From the NCBI GenBank assembly GCA_943846595.1, contig OX044355.1:1453501-1517500 (forward strand): a stretch of DNA of 64,000 nucleotides, written 5' to 3'. Source of the DNA: an uncultured Polaribacter sp. (lineage in GTDB: Bacteria; Bacteroidota; Bacteroidia; Flavobacteriales; Flavobacteriaceae). Made by a program: the position numbers and the translations under genes. Shown in pieces: positions 41,121 through 45,772 of the stretch (position 1 is its first letter; each line of letters begins with the position of its first letter). The notes under the pieces are model-generated. The model saw nothing but the letters and a program-made list of their open reading frames with translations, searched no databases and had not been told where the DNA came from.

Positions 41121-41194
41121 GGGCTCTTAGCTCAGCTGGATAGAGCACCTCCCTTCTAAGGAGGCGGTCGAAGGTTCGAATCCTTCAGGGCTCA
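41121..41194 (+). tRNA. tRNA-Arg (anticodon TCT)
   Basis: The acceptor arm GGGCTCT pairs with AGGGCTC through G-U pairs. The anticodon arm CCTCCCTTCTAAGGAGG carries TCT, and the T arm is GAAGGTTCGAATCCTTC. CCA is not encoded. It is the last tRNA of the operon and the tRNA directly adjoining the integrase-relic island, so its 3' end is the obvious candidate for the original attachment site. Confidence 0.97.
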
Positions 41195-41197
41195 CAT

Positions 41198-41229
41198 AAA
41201 CCTTACTAGAAATAGTAGGGTTTTTTGTT
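41198..41229 (+). terminator. tRNA operon terminator, also left copy of a 32-bp direct repeat
   Basis: The hairpin AAACCTTACT/AGTAGGGTTT with loop AGAAAT is followed by T6. The same 32 bases recur with a single difference at 45346-45377. As left copy of that repeat it may mark one edge of an inserted segment. As a terminator it ends the tRNA transcript. Confidence 0.8.
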
Positions 41230-41344
41230 GGGTAAAACTTAATGTTAATAAGGGTTTTCAACAATCCATACTGTTCTTGAAATTACTTACAGCACAGTTA
41301 AAGTTAAAGCAAAATTTTTAATCATTTAGTACTTTTGATAAATA

Positions 41345-41366
41345 TTTGGCAGACATTTGGCAGACA
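41345..41366. repeat. Tandem 11-bp direct repeat TTTGGCAGACA x2
   Basis: Two perfect adjacent copies at 41345-41355 and 41356-41366. The 11-base period is close to one helical turn, as expected of paired protein-binding sites such as integrase arm sites (inference). They lie between the tRNA-Arg terminator and the first integrase relic. Confidence 0.8.
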
Positions 41367-41407
41367 TTTTAATTCAGAGATTTTTATACCTCTTAAGTGG
41401 GTTTGAC
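41367..41407 (-). pseudogene. Relic A: 3'-end remnant of a tyrosine recombinase gene
   Basis: On the minus strand this segment reads THLRGIKISELK, matching the C-terminal end of the integrase family whose better-preserved copies (B, C and D) read T(C/Y)LRG(L/F)E. At DNA level it matches relic C at 32 of 41 positions without gaps. The coding end after ELK is replaced by the 11-bp repeats. It is transcribed toward the tRNA genes. It lies directly before the first small cargo gene. Confidence 0.7.
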
Positions 41408-41428
41408 TTGTATTTCTTATATTTGAGT

Positions 41429-41809
41429 ATGAAAAATTTACTTCTGTTATTATTTATACCTATTGTTTGTTTTGGACAGGAAGTTGAATTACCTGCACTA
41501 AGACTTAGTAATAATTTTTCAAAACCTTATAGAGTTTTAAAGACAACAATTTCAGATAAATCTTTGTTTAAACAGAATTATAATAATACTGACTTAACAC
41601 TTGATTATGTTATTAGGTATCATTTTTACACCTCAATCGATTTAAATGAAGGAGAAAATCAATTAATAAGTATGGATGGTACAAAATTTAATCTTTCTTC
41701 AGAAAATGCTAAGGATTTAACTGATGAGGTCATCTCGTTAGTGGGTGGGATGTATTTTGGTAAAAAAGAATTTAATGCGTTTAAAGAACTAAATAAAAAA
41801 ACGAACTAA
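41429..41809 (+). CDS. Hypothetical exported protein (first island gene)
   Basis: A 126-residue protein of no family I recognise. It has a signal peptide (MKNLLLLLFIPIVCFGQ) and a mature part with alternating polar and hydrophobic stretches (VLKTTISDKSLFKQNYNNTD, YVIRYHFYTSIDLNEGENQ). The frame is open upstream to 41357, but that part overlaps integrase relic A and would bury the signal peptide, so I start at the ATG at 41429. A TATATTTG box ends only three bases before this ATG, so a leaderless transcript or another promoter is possible. Its stop codon overlaps the stop of integrase relic B on the other strand. Confidence 0.7.
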   Translation: MKNLLLLLFIPIVCFGQEVELPALRLSNNFSKPYRVLKTTISDKSLFKQNYNNTDLTLDYVIRYHFYTSIDLNEGENQLISMDGTKFNLSSENAKDLTDEVISLVGGMYFGKKEFNAFKELNKKTN

Positions 41810-41868
41810 ACCATAGGCATATCCTCCTCCTTCAGTTCTACTATTTCTAAACCTCTTAAACAGGTTAG
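41806..41868 (-). pseudogene. Relic B: 3'-end remnant of a tyrosine recombinase gene
   Basis: Minus-strand translation ends LRGLEIVELKEEDMPMV followed by TAG at 41806-41808, the characteristic C-terminus of a flavobacterial tyrosine recombinase. Upstream there is a two-base deletion relative to relic C and homology stops after about 21 codons, so only the last sixth of the gene's final domain remains. Same orientation as relics A, C and D. Confidence 0.85.
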
Positions 41869-41898
41869 ATACTTTTCTTATATTTGAAAAAAGATATT

Positions 41899-42366
41899 AT
41901 GAAAACATTAGTAAGAAATATCATAATTTTAGTTTGTTTAATCTTATTTTTAAGTTGTTCTGTTACAAATATTAAAATCTCTGAAAATCCAAAACTTGGC
42001 TATATTCAAACTAATTATATTAGTGGTCAGCTAAAAAACAAAACGTATATGAAAATTGATACTTTAGGTAACTGGATTTATAATGGTATTTCAAAATCTT
42101 ATTATAAAAATGGTCAGCTAAAGTCTGAAGGGAACTTCAAAAATAATAAACAAGATGGTCAATGGAGATCGTATTATGATAACGGTCGGTTAAAGTCCAA
42201 GGTATACTACAAAGACGGAAAAGAAGATGGTTTATCTAATTTTTATTACAAAAACGGGCAGTTAAAGCAAAAAACAAACAATAATAATGATAAGCCAGGT
42301 GGAATTCCAGCTGGATTTTGGGAAAATGGAAGTTCTAGAAGACAGATTAAACCAATAAAAAACTAA
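41899..42366 (+). CDS. MORN-2-repeat (YwqK-like) lipoprotein
   Basis: A 155-residue lipoprotein (LILFLSCSVT lipobox). The mature part consists of toxin-antitoxin YwqK/MORN-2-type repeats: SKSYYKNGQLKSEGNFK, WRSYYDNGRLKSKVYYKDGK and SNFYYKNGQLKQK, ending with a variant GFWENGSSRRQ. YwqK-like proteins are often called antitoxins, but a surface lipoprotein form is common in Bacteroidota and its function is unknown. I start at the ATG at 41899. TATATTTG at 41879-41886 is a plausible -7 box for this gene. It is the second cargo gene, set between integrase relics B and C. Confidence 0.82.
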   Translation: MKTLVRNIIILVCLILFLSCSVTNIKISENPKLGYIQTNYISGQLKNKTYMKIDTLGNWIYNGISKSYYKNGQLKSEGNFKNNKQDGQWRSYYDNGRLKSKVYYKDGKEDGLSNFYYKNGQLKQKTNNNNDKPGGIPAGFWENGSSRRQIKPIKN

Positions 42367-42405
42367 TAGTTTATAGTTAAAACAAAAGAATTTTATAGAC
42401 AACCA

Positions 42406-42478
42406 CTAAACCATAGGCATATCCTCTTCTTTCAATTCAGCTATTTCTAAACCTCTTAAATAGGTTAAACTTACATTT
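42406..42478 (-). pseudogene. Relic C: 3'-end remnant of a tyrosine recombinase gene
   Basis: Minus-strand translation is NVSLTYLRGLEIAELKEED and then MPMV and TAG at 42406-42408. This is the least altered of the four remnants, with about 24 sense codons. Similarity to an integrase stops abruptly just before the NVS residues, where a stop codon appears. It lies between the second and third cargo genes. Confidence 0.87.
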
Positions 42479-42510
42479 ATTTAATTTATAAACCTTTCTG
42501 TTTCTTTCAT

Positions 42511-42526
42511 GGGCTGTTTTTGGGCT
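42511..42526. repeat. GGGCT double repeat, 11-base period (copy 1)
   Basis: GGGCT at 42511-42515 and 42522-42526, start to start 11 bases. The surrounding roughly 46 bases, including a long T-run downstream, closely match the segment at 43557-43602 ahead of the fourth cargo gene. This is possible recombinase arm-site or leader duplication. Confidence 0.6.
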
Positions 42527-42581
42527 ATATAAATTAATTTTTTTTTATATATTGTGCGCCTAACTTAAATTAAACAATATT

Positions 42582-42827
42582 ATGAAGATCAAACAAATTT
42601 TAATGGCAGTTGTTTTTACAGCTGTTTTAGTAGGTTGTGGAGGTACAGATCCTAAAGAAGCTGGTGAAAAAGCAGGAAAAGAAGTATGTGAAAAAATGAA
42701 ATCTGGCGACTTTACTCAGTCAGATGCGAAAAAGTTTATGGAGGAGGCAAAGGCGAGCATAGACAATGAAGAAGATGCTGCAATATGGATGAAAGCATAT
42801 TTGGCAAAATTTATGGATTGTAATTAA
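42582..42827 (+). CDS. Small hypothetical lipoprotein
   Basis: An 81-residue SPII lipoprotein: MAVVFTAVLVGCGGTDPKEA, with the lipidated Cys at residue 19. The mature part is about 60 residues, strongly charged and helical (EKAGKEVCEKMKSGDFTQSD, then KKFMEEAKASIDNEEDAA), ending in KFMDCN with a last Cys that may pair with the inner one. I do not recognise a family. It is the third gene in the island, 104 bases after relic C, and has a terminator of its own. Confidence 0.75.
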   Translation: MKIKQILMAVVFTAVLVGCGGTDPKEAGEKAGKEVCEKMKSGDFTQSDAKKFMEEAKASIDNEEDAAIWMKAYLAKFMDCN

Positions 42828-42896
42828 AATTTAATTCTTAACTCAAATTTTTTTGTTTTAATAATTATGTTCAATATTTCGAAAAATTATCTACTA

Positions 42897-42930
42897 AAGA
42901 GTAATCAGAAATGGTTACTCTTCTTTTTTG
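42897..42930 (+). terminator. Terminator after the small lipoprotein gene
   Basis: An 8-bp stem AAGAGTAA/TTACTCTT with a 10-base loop, followed by TCTTTTTT-type T-rich sequence, 70 bases after the stop codon. Confidence 0.75.
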
Positions 42931-43048
42931 CAGAAAACTCAAGTATATAATGGTTTTAAGAGTGTCCTAATTGAGTGTTAAACTGTTGATAATCCTTACT
43001 TCTTATTTAAAAACTAATAAATTCTATAATTAGGATTAATTTTTTCAT

Positions 43049-43410
43049 TTAATTAATAGTCATCTCTTCCTCCTTGAATTCAGTAAATTCAAATCCTCTT
43101 AAGTAAGTCAGAGATACATTATAGAGGAATGTCCCACAGCTTTCTGTAGCTTGGTTATAGAATCTGTTTTTTAGAGATTTCTATAGCTCCAAAATACCTA
43201 AACGAACCCTTGTTTAAAATATACTTGATTGTCTCTTAAAACGATTCCAAAGGGTCTTAAAGTAATCTTGATTTAATGCTTGTTGTCTTCCAGAAAAGAT
43301 ATTATGATGCCGTTCTCCTTCTACAAGTAGTTCTCTAATATATGTTGGAACTGGAACGATTCTGTTTCTTCCAGATTTATTTCTATTACCAGATAAATGA
43401 GTGTATGTAA
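43049..43410 (-). pseudogene. Relic D: degenerate catalytic domain of a tyrosine recombinase
   Basis: The largest integrase remnant. Reading the minus strand from right to left it shows SGNRNKSGRNRIVPVPTYIR, then ELLVEGERHHNIFSGRQQAL, NQDYFKTLWNRFKRQS, then across frameshifts FGAIEISKK, TKLQKAVGHSSI (the conserved HxxR..GH.S region) and NVSLTYLRGFEFTEFKEEE with a TAA at 43049-43051. At least three frame changes and internal stops make it non-functional. The N-terminal arm and core-binding domains are not detectable to the right. Its C-terminus is homologous to relics A-C, showing what they derive from. Confidence 0.85.
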
Positions 43411-43558
43411 GTTAAAGGCACAACTTATATGTTTACTCTTAAAGGATTTTCTCAAGTTCTAAAAATAATTAAACTTTATAGAAATAGTACCTAAATTCGC
43501 TTGCAGAAAATATGTTTTTTTTTACAAAACAAGATCAATTTGAGATTAGAAAATAGAT

Positions 43559-43574
43559 GGGCTGTATATGGGCT
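43559..43574. repeat. GGGCT double repeat, 11-base period (copy 2)
   Basis: GGGCT at 43559-43563 and 43570-43574. It has the same spacing and similar flanks as the copy at 42511-42526, again lying between an integrase relic and the following small gene. Confidence 0.6.
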
Positions 43575-43672
43575 TATTAATTAGTTTTTTTTAATTAGAT
43601 TGCCAACCAATAACGTCTGAACTACCCGAATAAGACTTTAAATTGAAGTAGGGATACTCTAAAATCAATATT

Positions 43673-44023
43673 ATGAAAACTATTAAAGTACTTGGATTAT
43701 TATTTGCTTTTTTTATTAGCACTACAGCTTTTACGAATATAGAAAACGCGACAAATAATCCGCTTGAAATTTCTGTTAACCCAATAGATGATTGTGCTAA
43801 ATTTTTAAAAGATTACGAAAAGTTTATTGACAAATACATTGTGGTTTTAAAGAAGTACAAAGCTAACCCAACGGACATGTCCATAATGCAAGATTATACT
43901 GAACTTGCTTCGAAAGCTGGAAAATTTTCCTCCAAGAATCCAGGTAATTGTTCTGTGGACCAAACATTAAAACTTGCAAAAATTGCAGAAAAACTAACGA
44001 AGGCCATGTCAAAAATGTATTAA
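43673..44023 (+). CDS. Hypothetical exported protein with a helical mature domain
   Basis: A 116-residue protein with a signal peptide (VLGLLFAFFISTTAFT). The mature part has two cysteines (DDCAKFLKDYEKFIDKYI and NPGNCSVDQTLKLAKIAEKL) and a predicted helical bundle with the segment KKYKANPTDMSIMQDYTEL. It resembles DUF6591-type exported proteins of Bacteroidota, but I am not certain of the assignment. It is the fourth cargo gene, 262 bases after relic D, followed by a terminator. Confidence 0.75.
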   Translation: MKTIKVLGLLFAFFISTTAFTNIENATNNPLEISVNPIDDCAKFLKDYEKFIDKYIVVLKKYKANPTDMSIMQDYTELASKAGKFSSKNPGNCSVDQTLKLAKIAEKLTKAMSKMY

Positions 44024-44055
44024 GACGAAGGCAAAATATAAGTTTTGTTAAACAC

Positions 44056-44087
44056 AAAAACCTCCTTAACAGGAGGTTTTTGTTTTA
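44056..44087 (+). terminator. Terminator after the fourth island gene
   Basis: Stem AAAAACCTCC/GGAGGTTTTT with a 6-base loop followed by GTTTT, 33 bases after the stop. Confidence 0.85.
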
Positions 44088-44261
44088 CTAAATAATTAGA
44101 GTAATTAAAAACAAAATTACGATTAAAAAGGATTGACCATTTAAAGATGAGATGATTTTAAAAAATAATGAATTGAAAAAATACCCTACAGTTGTGATTA
44201 AATTTAAGAAAATTTTGTCCCAAAACCTTTTAAAATAAACAATTTACTCCACGTTAATTGT

Positions 44262-44704
44262 ATTAAAAATTTACTATTAATTCGAGTTATTTCATCACGT
44301 TTTTATCAACTAACGCTCAAGATTCTATAGATTGCAAAGAGACGATACAGGCAGGTTCAAAATTTTCCTTTGTTTCAGACGATAGGTATTTTGGCGGCCA
44401 AGTTAATGCGATGGTATTATACCGTTTCACAAATCCACCTCAGGCTGACGTTCGTGGAGGGTTAGGATTTTGTGTTAGAAAATTTGATGCTCGAATTAGC
44501 ATCGCTGCTCGCTAGTTCTTAACTGAATCTTGGATTGCATACGGCGAGCATAACCGATTATCCACAGCTATAGATGGTGCAGGTTCTGGAGTTGGTTACA
44601 AAGTAATCATTTGCAATTGTGTAGAATTTAATCCAATGCCAAGCGATCGTATAGCATCTGAAGAACTTGACCTTACAATGGGTTTTCCAATTCGATTTCA
44701 ATAA
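44262..44704 (+). pseudogene. Decayed gene for a secreted protein
   Basis: A single reading frame can be followed from about 44300 to the TAA at 44702-44704, interrupted by a TAG at 44513-44515. It reads FLSTNAQDSIDCKETIQAGS, later FGGQVNAMVLYRFTNPP, and after the stop FLTESWIAYGEHNRLSTAID ending MGFPIRFQ. The signal peptide lies in another frame (IKNLLLI) and lacks an ATG, so there is also a frameshift and a lost start. The remains suggest an exported protein of about 145 residues with a possible beta-barrel or jelly-roll character. Family not recognised. Codon use is more GC-rich than the flanking island DNA. 44088-44261 shows nothing else. Confidence 0.72.
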
Positions 44705-44829
44705 TCAGTTTTAAATTATGGTAAGCTTCACAGAAATGTGAGCCTTTCTTATTGGGATTCGCCTAAGTTAATTGCATTTAACAACTAATTTAGCTAAATT
44801 TGATATATTAACTAAAACATATGTAACAA

Positions 44830-45321
44830 ATGAAAAAAATAGTAGGCATATTTGCCTTGGTCGTTGTGTTGTATTCTTGCAATCAAACAACAGAAGTAAT
44901 TGAAAACAAGCAAGCTGGCGAATGGGTTTCATCGGGTGCTAAATATTCAATGGGAGACGATGCCAACGTCGCCACTGTAAAAGCTTTTATAGAAGGGTAT
45001 GAAAAGATGAATGTTGAAACCATCTTTAATCTTTCTCAAGATTCTGTAAGAGTATTTTTACACAATCTAGAAACACCCATGTATATGAACAGAACATTGC
45101 TCACTCAAATGTTTTCGAATTTCGACTCCATTCAAGCGACCCCAGTTTATTTTTTACCCTACCAAGTAGCAGGATGGGACCAAAGTATCGTACAAGTGGT
45201 TTCTAAAGAAAAACGATTTCTAAAAGACGGAACCATAGAAAATGTGCGTTTGTTAGAAAAATTTATAATTGACAAAGACGGAAAGGTGTCAACAATTCGC
45301 CAATTCGATGCTGCTTGGTAA
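44830..45321 (+). CDS. NTF2-like (SnoaL-type) lipoprotein
   Basis: A 163-residue lipoprotein (VVVLYSCNQT, lipidated Cys17). The mature part has the look of an NTF2/SnoaL cone fold: a helix ANVATVKAFIEGYEKMNVET, then strands around DSVRVFLHNLETPMYMNR, and a paired end IENVRLLEKFIIDKDGKVS followed by TIRQFDAAW. It probably binds a small molecule or is a structural envelope protein. It is the last gene before the right copy of the 32-bp repeat. Confidence 0.8.
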   Translation: MKKIVGIFALVVVLYSCNQTTEVIENKQAGEWVSSGAKYSMGDDANVATVKAFIEGYEKMNVETIFNLSQDSVRVFLHNLETPMYMNRTLLTQMFSNFDSIQATPVYFLPYQVAGWDQSIVQVVSKEKRFLKDGTIENVRLLEKFIIDKDGKVSTIRQFDAAW

Positions 45322-45342
45322 ACTTTTTACTCGTGTAGTCCT

Positions 45343-45377
45343 AAAAAACCTTACTAGAAATAGTAAGGTTTTTTGTT
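45343..45377 (+). terminator. Terminator and right copy of the 32-bp direct repeat
   Basis: Stem AAAAAACCTTACT/AGTAAGGTTTTTT with loop AGAAAT. Positions 45346-45377 match 41198-41229 at 31 of 32 bases. It ends the NTF2-like gene. As right copy of the repeat it may mark the right boundary of the segment inserted next to tRNA-Arg. Confidence 0.8.
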
Positions 45378-45772
45378 TTCTGTTCATAATTCAACCCACT
45401 TATTCCTCTAAAACGACCACTTATTCTTTATAAGCCCCATTTATTTATTGATACTTTTTTAAAGTGTAAATGACTTAATTATCATTTATTTTTATTGAGT
45501 ATTTACGATCCAATAATACAAAGCTATCGCTACAAATAATGTTGTGAATTAATTTTAAATTGTATTTCATGTGTTGCAATAATTAACGTCGCAGTTCCTG
45601 AAAGTTGTGAATTGATTTTAAATTGTTTTTCAACACACCTTTTTTGAGAAAAGAGCCAAGTAGAGCTCATTAATCCTCTTACGCAGGTTTTTAAACTGTT
45701 TTTCCGTTTTTAATGAATTGAAAAATGAAGGTCAGGTATAATTAATCTATCCTGTCTTTTTGAAAAATTAAT
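45378..45772. other. Intergenic gap with CRISPR-like repeats and a weak integrase-end match
   Basis: No gene is visible in these 395 bases. They hold the 29-bp repeat pair listed separately. They also hold CCTCTTACGCAGGTT at 45675-45689, which matches relic B's equivalent segment at 13 of 15 bases and reads TCVRGL on the minus strand, so it may be a very worn fifth integrase end. The YdeP-type gene converges from the right without a clear terminator. Confidence 0.4.
45541..45632. repeat. Two 29-bp direct repeats resembling the start of a type II-C CRISPR repeat
   Basis: Copies at 45541-45569 and 45604-45632 share 27 of 29 bases, begin GTTGTGAATT and contain TTTTAAATTGT. The period is 63 bases. 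The opening decamer is the one typical of flavobacterial type II-C CRISPR repeats, but the usual closing AACAAC-like end is missing and sequences after the 29 bases differ. No cas gene is in the window. GTGTTG at 45571-45576 can pair with CAACAC near 45631. A degenerate array remnant is one reading, an RNA structure another. Confidence 0.45.

Follow-up and report, generated by a model that had tools for sequence, protein, structure and literature searches.

The array beside tRNA-Arg

The window (the whole stretch of 64,000 nucleotides analysed here, from an uncultured Polaribacter sp.) holds, beside a tRNA-Arg(TCT) gene, a short array in which 3' ends of a tyrosine-integrase gene, hereafter called tails, alternate with small genes of the opposite strand. 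The tRNA gene (41121..41195, plus strand, found by ARAGORN and Rfam) is presumed to be functional and to be the target gene of the element that carries the array. Paired TTTGGCAGAC repeats lie at 41346..41370 on the plus strand (motif at +151 and +162 after the tRNA) and are presumably arm-type integrase sites marking the right end of this element. Four relics are found on the minus strand: tail A (about 41369..41424), a decayed integrase 3' end that is the last site of the array and the most decayed of the four; tails B (41806..41875) and C (42406..42475), both clean integrase 3' ends without a body and both presumed recombination sites; and relic D (43049..43411), the 3' part of a decayed integrase gene, whose own tail (43049-43118) is continued by about 290 nt of decayed integrase body. 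The original prediction, made from the window alone, held that all four relics carry the same integrase C-terminal tail, and this is confirmed by their identity to a probe made from relic C (84% for B, 76% for A and 74% for D) and by their in-frame reading, ...LTYLRGLE..ELKEEDMPMV* (also written ...LTYLRGLEIAELKEEDMPMV*), which spans the catalytic tyrosine and the C-terminal residues.

A small plus-strand gene had been placed after each relic, which is correct for A, B and C and incorrect for D. Cassette gene 1 (41429..41809) encodes a small exported protein and cassette gene 2 (41899..42366) a MORN_2-repeat lipoprotein-like protein; a plus-strand TATATTTG, read from the sequence as a candidate -7 promoter motif, accompanies each of them (41418..41425 and 41879..41886, respectively). 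Gene 3 (42582..42827) encodes a small lipoprotein-like product, and the segment around it (42543-42854) is 88% identical to a segment of L105 that has no flanking tails (the loci, L, and genomes, G, from the genome searches are among the matches listed). Gene 43673 (43673..44023, plus strand), which encodes a small exported protein with a DUF6591 match, lies within the element but is not an array unit, because it sits past the 5' side of relic D, where no tails enclose it.

Alignment with the relative G019 places a copy of the tRNA-Arg 3' flank at 44723..44785 (plus strand), presumably the left end of the element. In G019 itself, the two flank copies agree in 45 of 46 columns, and the tRNA-side contig is collinear with the window up to 41367, the start of tail A, where the contig stops. 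These landmarks fit a decayed element of 3.5 kb that would end at the arm-like repeats of 41346-41370 on one side and at the flank copy of 44723 on the other. At the equivalent site, G014 carries a two-cassette array with other genes, G010 has the same neighbour genes and no array, and G029 has only about 390 bp between the tRNA and the next gene. A 32-nt repeat (41198/45346) was considered as an attachment duplication and set aside, because its second copy is the terminator of gene 44830-45321 and is present in G019 with the same flank; it looks like a shared terminator. Note that the stretch between gene 42582 and relic D (42828-43020) is 81-86% identical to tRNA-Met 3' flanks of other genomes; it is perhaps a remnant of a tRNA-Met-site element or a shared terminator. 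The tRNA-Arg gene is also a target of other elements.

Tails, cassettes and their reshuffling

The tail consists of the last ~70 nt of the tyrosine-integrase gene, numbered from idx 0 (TGTAAGTTTAACC...) to idx 69 (the stop codon), and comprises a 17-bp core and an arm of about 45 bp that encodes the integrase C-terminus. The core is an inverted repeat, AACCT-N7-AGGTT (idx 9-25, with the spacer at 14-20), lying over the catalytic-tyrosine codon; its arms pair at four or more of five positions in 106 of 200 full-length tails, and in 0-9 when one side is slid. No conserved fold was detected when 30 tails were submitted to RNAalifold (-0.19 kcal/mol, 6 pairs). An arm-only tail (idx 28-70) lies at the tRNA-Arg locus of G019 (C32; L300 30-1057), after a different open reading frame (ORF) of 319 aa that reads like a tyrosine recombinase.

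The chromosome of the organism itself (2.31 Mb) contains 21 copies of the 95-nt relic C probe with expect values (E) of at most 3.1e-11, the next match having E=0.36, which excludes a chance origin of the repeats. Fourteen are clustered at 903-915 kb of contig C1 and three at 114-115 kb; the others lie at 271.6 kb, at 279.3 kb and, for two of them, in the window. Four other tyrosine-recombinase genes of the same genome served as a control, and the 3' end of each occurs only once. The largest array (L009 5189-16700, that is C1:903.2-914.7 kb) has 14 tail copies and several internal integrase fragments, and its cargo includes many DUF6090-like genes, lipoproteins and a cupin-like gene.

The repeats are not confined to this genome; the original prediction would have been refuted had all other genomes lacked them. 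R1, the sequence-only tail model used for the distribution scans, gave matches in 36 genomes, the own one among them, out of 146 in a genus sample (E<=0.001; 20 out of 110 for those of good quality); at least two matches were obtained in 24 of the 146, and several other genomes had one weak match. Matches were found in 29 of 395 genomes of an order sample (E<=1e-4; 11 with at least two matches, many of them weak) and in 3 of 395 of a phylum sample, namely the own genome and two single weak matches. A scan with the integrase protein detected 73 loci; Flavobacteriales or other Bacteroidia account for nearly all of them, and marine metagenome-assembled genomes for many. The integrase C-terminus was reached in 67 of the 73. 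Judged by eye, tail-rich genomes of the genus sample are mostly small (about 1.4-2.6 Mb), and most of those above 3.5 Mb have no match or one weak match.

We collected 269 tails, loci from relatives included, of which 236 remained distinct once exact duplicates were removed (the duplicate loci L066, L068, L089 and L099 were excluded from some array comparisons). The score of the upstream integrase body is bimodal: below 30 in 131 tails, 30-60 in 16 and at least 60 in 89, the maximum among 60 shuffles being 29. In total, 140 of the 236 tails have no integrase body, and the 5' boundary of the tail is sharp. Leaving out intervals that were longer than 4 kb, shorter than 60 bp or interrupted by runs of N, we obtained 102 intervals ending in a bodyless tail, with a median length of 670 bp. 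Their longest ORF is antisense to the tail in 91 cases, sense in 9 and absent in 2; exactly one ORF of at least 60 aa is present in 79 of the 102, and the antisense longest ORF covers a median 88% of the interval. All tails lie on one strand in 58 of 59 multi-tail loci.

The same organization prevails behind integrases that retain a body: the first ORF after 62 such integrase ends is antisense in 46 cases, sense in 14 and absent in 2, and the stop codon of the antisense ones lies a median 31 nt from the integrase stop. From the antisense one-gene intervals and the close gene stops follows the order of a unit: core, arm, gene from stop to start, putative promoter, next core. Arrays with an intact recombinase, which it had seemed worth searching for, do exist: integrase-headed cassette rows occur in L011, L057, L065 and L092, and some arrays have an intact integrase of 347 aa at their head. 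According to the available text of PMC7366714, the Bacteroidota -7 motif has the consensus TAnnTTTG. This motif stands beside 45 of the 140 bodyless tails and beside none of the 89 tails with a body; it was found in 2.9% of shuffles and, in the other orientation, beside 4 of the 140.

Codon differences among bodyless tails (62 ungapped tails, 37 open to the stop) comprise 238 synonymous and 199 non-synonymous changes in frame, compared with 81/365 and 22/419 in the wrong frames; the 72 tails with a body gave 419/120. This codon-frame signal in bodyless tails is ambiguous, as descent from integrase genes alone might cause it.

To describe the cargo, we hand-picked 90 cassette proteins from 94 family representatives and from the array genes of the own genome, excluding short or doubtful ORFs; the set includes window gene 43673 and four L009 genes that lack two enclosing tails. 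Pfam assigned 55 families to these proteins, 48 of them found once each, with DUF6090 in five proteins and MORN_2 in four. By a simple rule, 73 of the 90 have signal- or lipobox-like N-termini, versus 16 of 63 background ORFs (2 of 31 among background ORFs of at most 300 aa). A defence-island character was considered and rejected, since PADLOC recognized only four families in the 90 proteins, one member each.

Cassettes recur in different surroundings. Among 117 cassette ORFs, 16 cross-locus pairs share at least 85% protein identity. In ungapped comparisons, identity over the 40 nt ahead of the first tail does not exceed 0.53 in 14 of the 16 pairs, and over the 40 nt that follow the second tail it does not exceed 0.50 in 15, while the 3' end of the gene is at least 0.88 identical in 13. 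In 6 of the 16, one genome has the cassette joined to an integrase body and the other has it joined to a tail that lacks a body. Members of one cassette family occur in two families of the order (L267 with L057 and L058, 86-90%). Units of the window itself are found elsewhere: 41368-41888 in L058 (93.3% DNA identity) and 41804-42435 in L274 (97.6%). Both arrays adjoin a polyprenyl-synthetase-like gene (a name read from the sequence), and that of L058 also a tRNA-Met; they therefore occupy another locus than in the window. The window-L058 pair stands outside the 16 because tail A did not reach the cut-off of the tail set, which left out the A-B cassette as well.

The window-L274 pair, which carries the MORN gene, gives an indication of where partners were switched: its second tails do not differ up to and including idx 33, both having a rare G in the spacer (idx 14), and diverge thereafter. 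In several other pairs, the first tails are alike from about idx 20-26 on. The switch thus probably took place within the tail, at the core or just beside it; random tail pairs are already 0.6-0.7 alike, which limits the reading of these points.

The integrase and its tRNA-targeted elements

The original prediction also linked the array to the tRNA gene. This link is real and belongs to the whole small element, not to single units. At several loci, a tRNA copy precedes the start of the integrase by ~50-60 nt, and paired arm-type repeats occupy the gap; the integrase is followed by cassettes and other genes, and then by a tRNA of the same kind located 4.1-10.6 kb from the first copy. Both copies were called by ARAGORN in L071, L072 and L105; in L073, L074, L082, L087 and L088, the first copy is a fragment read beside the integrase, and L121, whose integrase is truncated, was counted by its right end. 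Arm-like repeats lie 118-201 nt past the second tRNA in nine of nine elements, the motif having been picked after the left ends were seen.

The targets are tRNA-Met (two kinds), tRNA-Arg(TCT), tRNA-Ala and tRNA-Asn (the last assigned by reading the anticodon arm). The integrase-side copy in L088 is a chimera of two tRNA-Met genes, with the switch located within their shared anticodon loop, CTCATAA. The tail core and the tRNA anticodon arm, which is a stem-loop, share a 5-7-5 plan. Beside the integrase in L091 and L093, 170 nt upstream of 10001, a tRNA-Ala fragment points the other way from its counterpart in L097 and L100; the palindromic anticodon arm may have permitted insertion in either orientation. 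A small gene of 83-96 aa (MNTTGKKFGGRQKGTPNKL... or MPF.SETA.QAG...), with a weak PHROG match of unknown function, recurs in the elements (L072 11941-12231, L074 12855-13145, L087 12274-12525, L097 11405-11695, L105 11995-12246 and L121 12121-12372).

The genome of the organism encodes an intact integrase of 347 aa (C1:278343-279386). A tRNA-Met copy with an altered 5' part lies about 50 nt from it, and behind it come two antisense genes that are separated by a weak tail. In integrases of this type, the catalytic residues R, K, H/R, H and Y are present, as judged from the Pfam match (PF00589, 44.7 bits) and from conserved columns. The predicted integrase model (mean pLDDT, the predicted local distance difference test, 82; pTM, the predicted template modelling score, 0.52) opens with a three-stranded sheet and a helix; its C-terminal 55 residues are weakly predicted (pLDDT about 50-66). 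Its best Foldseek match is lambda integrase (1z1b, E 3.2e-9) and its second the integron integrase 2a3v, the nearest solved structure by sequence being 4a8e, a XerC-like recombinase.

Conservation along the protein is uneven: among 29 integrases, mean identity is 0.84 for residues 321-347, 0.74 for 180-320 and 0.39 for 1-170, the best 20-residue windows being 201-220 (0.91) and 301-320 (0.89). Residues 321-347 are thus conserved like catalytic motifs, in keeping with a double role as protein end and as putative site. In the A5 integrases, the N-terminal halves show ~39% mean identity and the catalytic half and tail are nearly the same, which suggests that the N-terminal (targeting) parts may have been exchanged. 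A phage origin was considered and rejected: 30 pattern matches included no relative of the integrase, the tail pattern was absent from the viral contigs and the tail was absent from the phage records. A plasmid origin fared no better, with matches of only 23-27% identity in two plasmids.

A probable cassette system and its rivals

We consider it probable that these loci are mobile arrays of one-gene cassettes, carried by small lambda-type elements inserted at tRNA genes and using as site the last ~70 bp of their own integrase gene. The recombination site would consist of the 17-bp core over the tyrosine codon together with the ~45-bp arm that encodes the integrase C-terminus, and a cassette would combine a copy of the tail with a single small gene that is antisense to the integrase and often has a putative promoter of its own. 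A circular cassette would be inserted when its tail recombines, at the core, with that of the integrase (or with another cassette's tail); the integrase would thereby acquire a complete new C-terminal tail and the row would grow. The core itself would be the point of exchange, the reaction would be catalysed by this integrase family with circles as the presumed intermediate, and the genes would be expressed from the cassettes' own promoters. In the case of the window array, the intact integrase located 1.2 Mb away (C1:278343-279386) could act in trans.

One of the two scenarios of the original prediction, namely a cassette system whose recombination site includes the integrase end, thus finds support in the sharp 5' boundary of the tails, in the antisense one-gene units, in arrays that follow intact integrases, in near-identical cassettes whose neighbours differ from genome to genome, in exchange inside the tail and in the tRNA and arm-site anatomy. 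Several observations weigh against it. Only about half of the full-length tails retain the core arms, and neighbouring tails share their spacers hardly more often than random ones (0.23 vs 0.17), so that the idea of identical spacers in adjacent tails is not supported. Arm-only sites exist, among them the first tail of the L274 MORN cassette and the one in G019. On its start side, the cassette is at least 0.80 alike in only 6 of the 16 pairs (ungapped), and the excess similarity of second tails, pooled over seven pairs, fades gradually to about idx 50 instead of ending at the core. The nine intervals with a sense ORF, the 16 tails with intermediate body scores and the raggedly cut ends of some integrase bodies depart from the scheme. 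Finally, the window's own element yielded no intact integrase, and neither recombination, nor circles, nor the gain or loss of a single cassette between strains was observed.

Some of these points would follow naturally if the tails were portable homology only, the units being spread by general (RecA-type) homologous recombination with no site-specific reaction at the tail. Indeed, the tails are 70 nt long and well conserved, the similarity shared by second tails fades gradually (n=7) and, on that account, neighbouring spacers need not match. We nevertheless hold this explanation to be unlikely: it leaves unexplained how single genes became joined to bodyless tails with a sharp 5' edge and why the 5-7-5 repeat exceeds the slid control in tails, and 70 nt at 70-90% identity is short for homologous recombination, which is inefficient on such substrates.

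The other scenario of the original prediction, repeated integration at the tRNA leaving integrase ends behind, amounts to an accretion of successive whole elements, each later deleted to an integrase end and one gene. Some integrase bodies in arrays are indeed truncated at varied points (L128, L009, relic D), the C-D interval of the window contains the stretch resembling a tRNA-Met flank, and tRNA-Arg serves other elements too. Such a history fits poorly with the 140 tails that lack any body and with the recurrence of the same gene-tail unit beside different neighbours; moreover, wherever tails of the scanned loci lie within 4 kb of each other, ARAGORN detected no tRNA between them, although fragments could escape it. 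We regard it as quite improbable.

The original prediction called the one-gene units integron-like without claiming an integron, and both halves of this statement hold. Single-gene rows were found, and an array of one-gene units adjoining a tyrosine recombinase, together with the second Foldseek match, could suggest a true integron (IntI, attI, attC) of an unusual lineage. We give this possibility almost no credence: membership is rejected because the integrase scores 20.0 bits with the integron-integrase model TIGR02249, against a cut-off of 265, and because the sites have no conserved, attC-like fold. In addition, the best structural match is lambda integrase, the protein starts with a three-stranded sheet and a helix, and the DNA carries arm-type repeats.

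The resemblance to integrons, the textbook case of a recombinase collecting single genes, is nonetheless extensive: in both, rows of single-gene units in one orientation stand behind a tyrosine integrase, and the units are compact, with the gene stop abutting the site, and are shared and shuffled between arrays. In contrast to integrons, the integrase here is lambda-like, with an N-terminus modelled as arm-binding-type, and the site lies inside the integrase's own coding sequence and has no conserved fold; the counterpart of attI would be the integrase 3' end. Moreover, integron cassettes are mostly promoterless and share a promoter, whereas a putative promoter motif accompanies many cassettes here. 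With tRNA-targeted elements and genomic islands that encode a lambda-type integrase, the elements share the tRNA copies at their ends, the arm-type repeats at both ends and the integrase at one end; they differ in that multiple copies of the integrase 3' end mark off single-gene units. Xer/pdif modules are likewise small gene modules bounded by tyrosine-recombinase sites, but pdif sites, 28-bp targets of XerC and XerD, are not part of a gene. The attachment site of SSV-type integrases likewise lies inside the integrase gene; SSV integration splits that gene, whereas the tail would complete it here.

Tycheposons (PMC10872708), compared on tRNA and recombinase, are also tRNA-bound, encode a tyrosine recombinase and occur in pelagic marine bacteria; the available text makes no mention of cassette rows bounded by the 3' end of the recombinase gene. 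The SE elements of Vibrio, according to the available text of PMC9345347, are marine, moved by tyrosine recombinases and contrasted there with integron cassettes; they are 7 kb long with four shared coding sequences (two of them recombinases), and are not one-gene cassettes. In the accessible portion of PMC9024848, on IntegronFinder 2.0, Salinibacter ruber is the one member of the Bacteroidetes proper that is named as having a complete integron. Among the open-access papers listed, we found no description of the present arrangement, as far as their accessible parts go (PMC9892861, PMC9024848, PMC10872708, PMC7366714 and PMC9345347 included; subscription papers and preprints lay outside this scope).

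We rate the construction as new and in principle convergent with integrons; by function alone, it could count as a variant of them. Taking these points together, we incline, with some reserve, towards a second, independently evolved gene-cassette system, in which a phage-like tRNA integrase would offer the DNA of its own tyrosine codon as the point of entry, cassettes would renew its C-terminus, and a pool of mostly small exported and membrane proteins would be shared across species, families and tRNA targets of pelagic Flavobacteriales. If this is true, cassette capture can arise from an ordinary phage-type integrase that uses its own 3' end as site, and the origin of integrons would become a directly testable question. 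It would also reveal a pool of small lipoproteins and membrane proteins that is exchanged among these bacteria.

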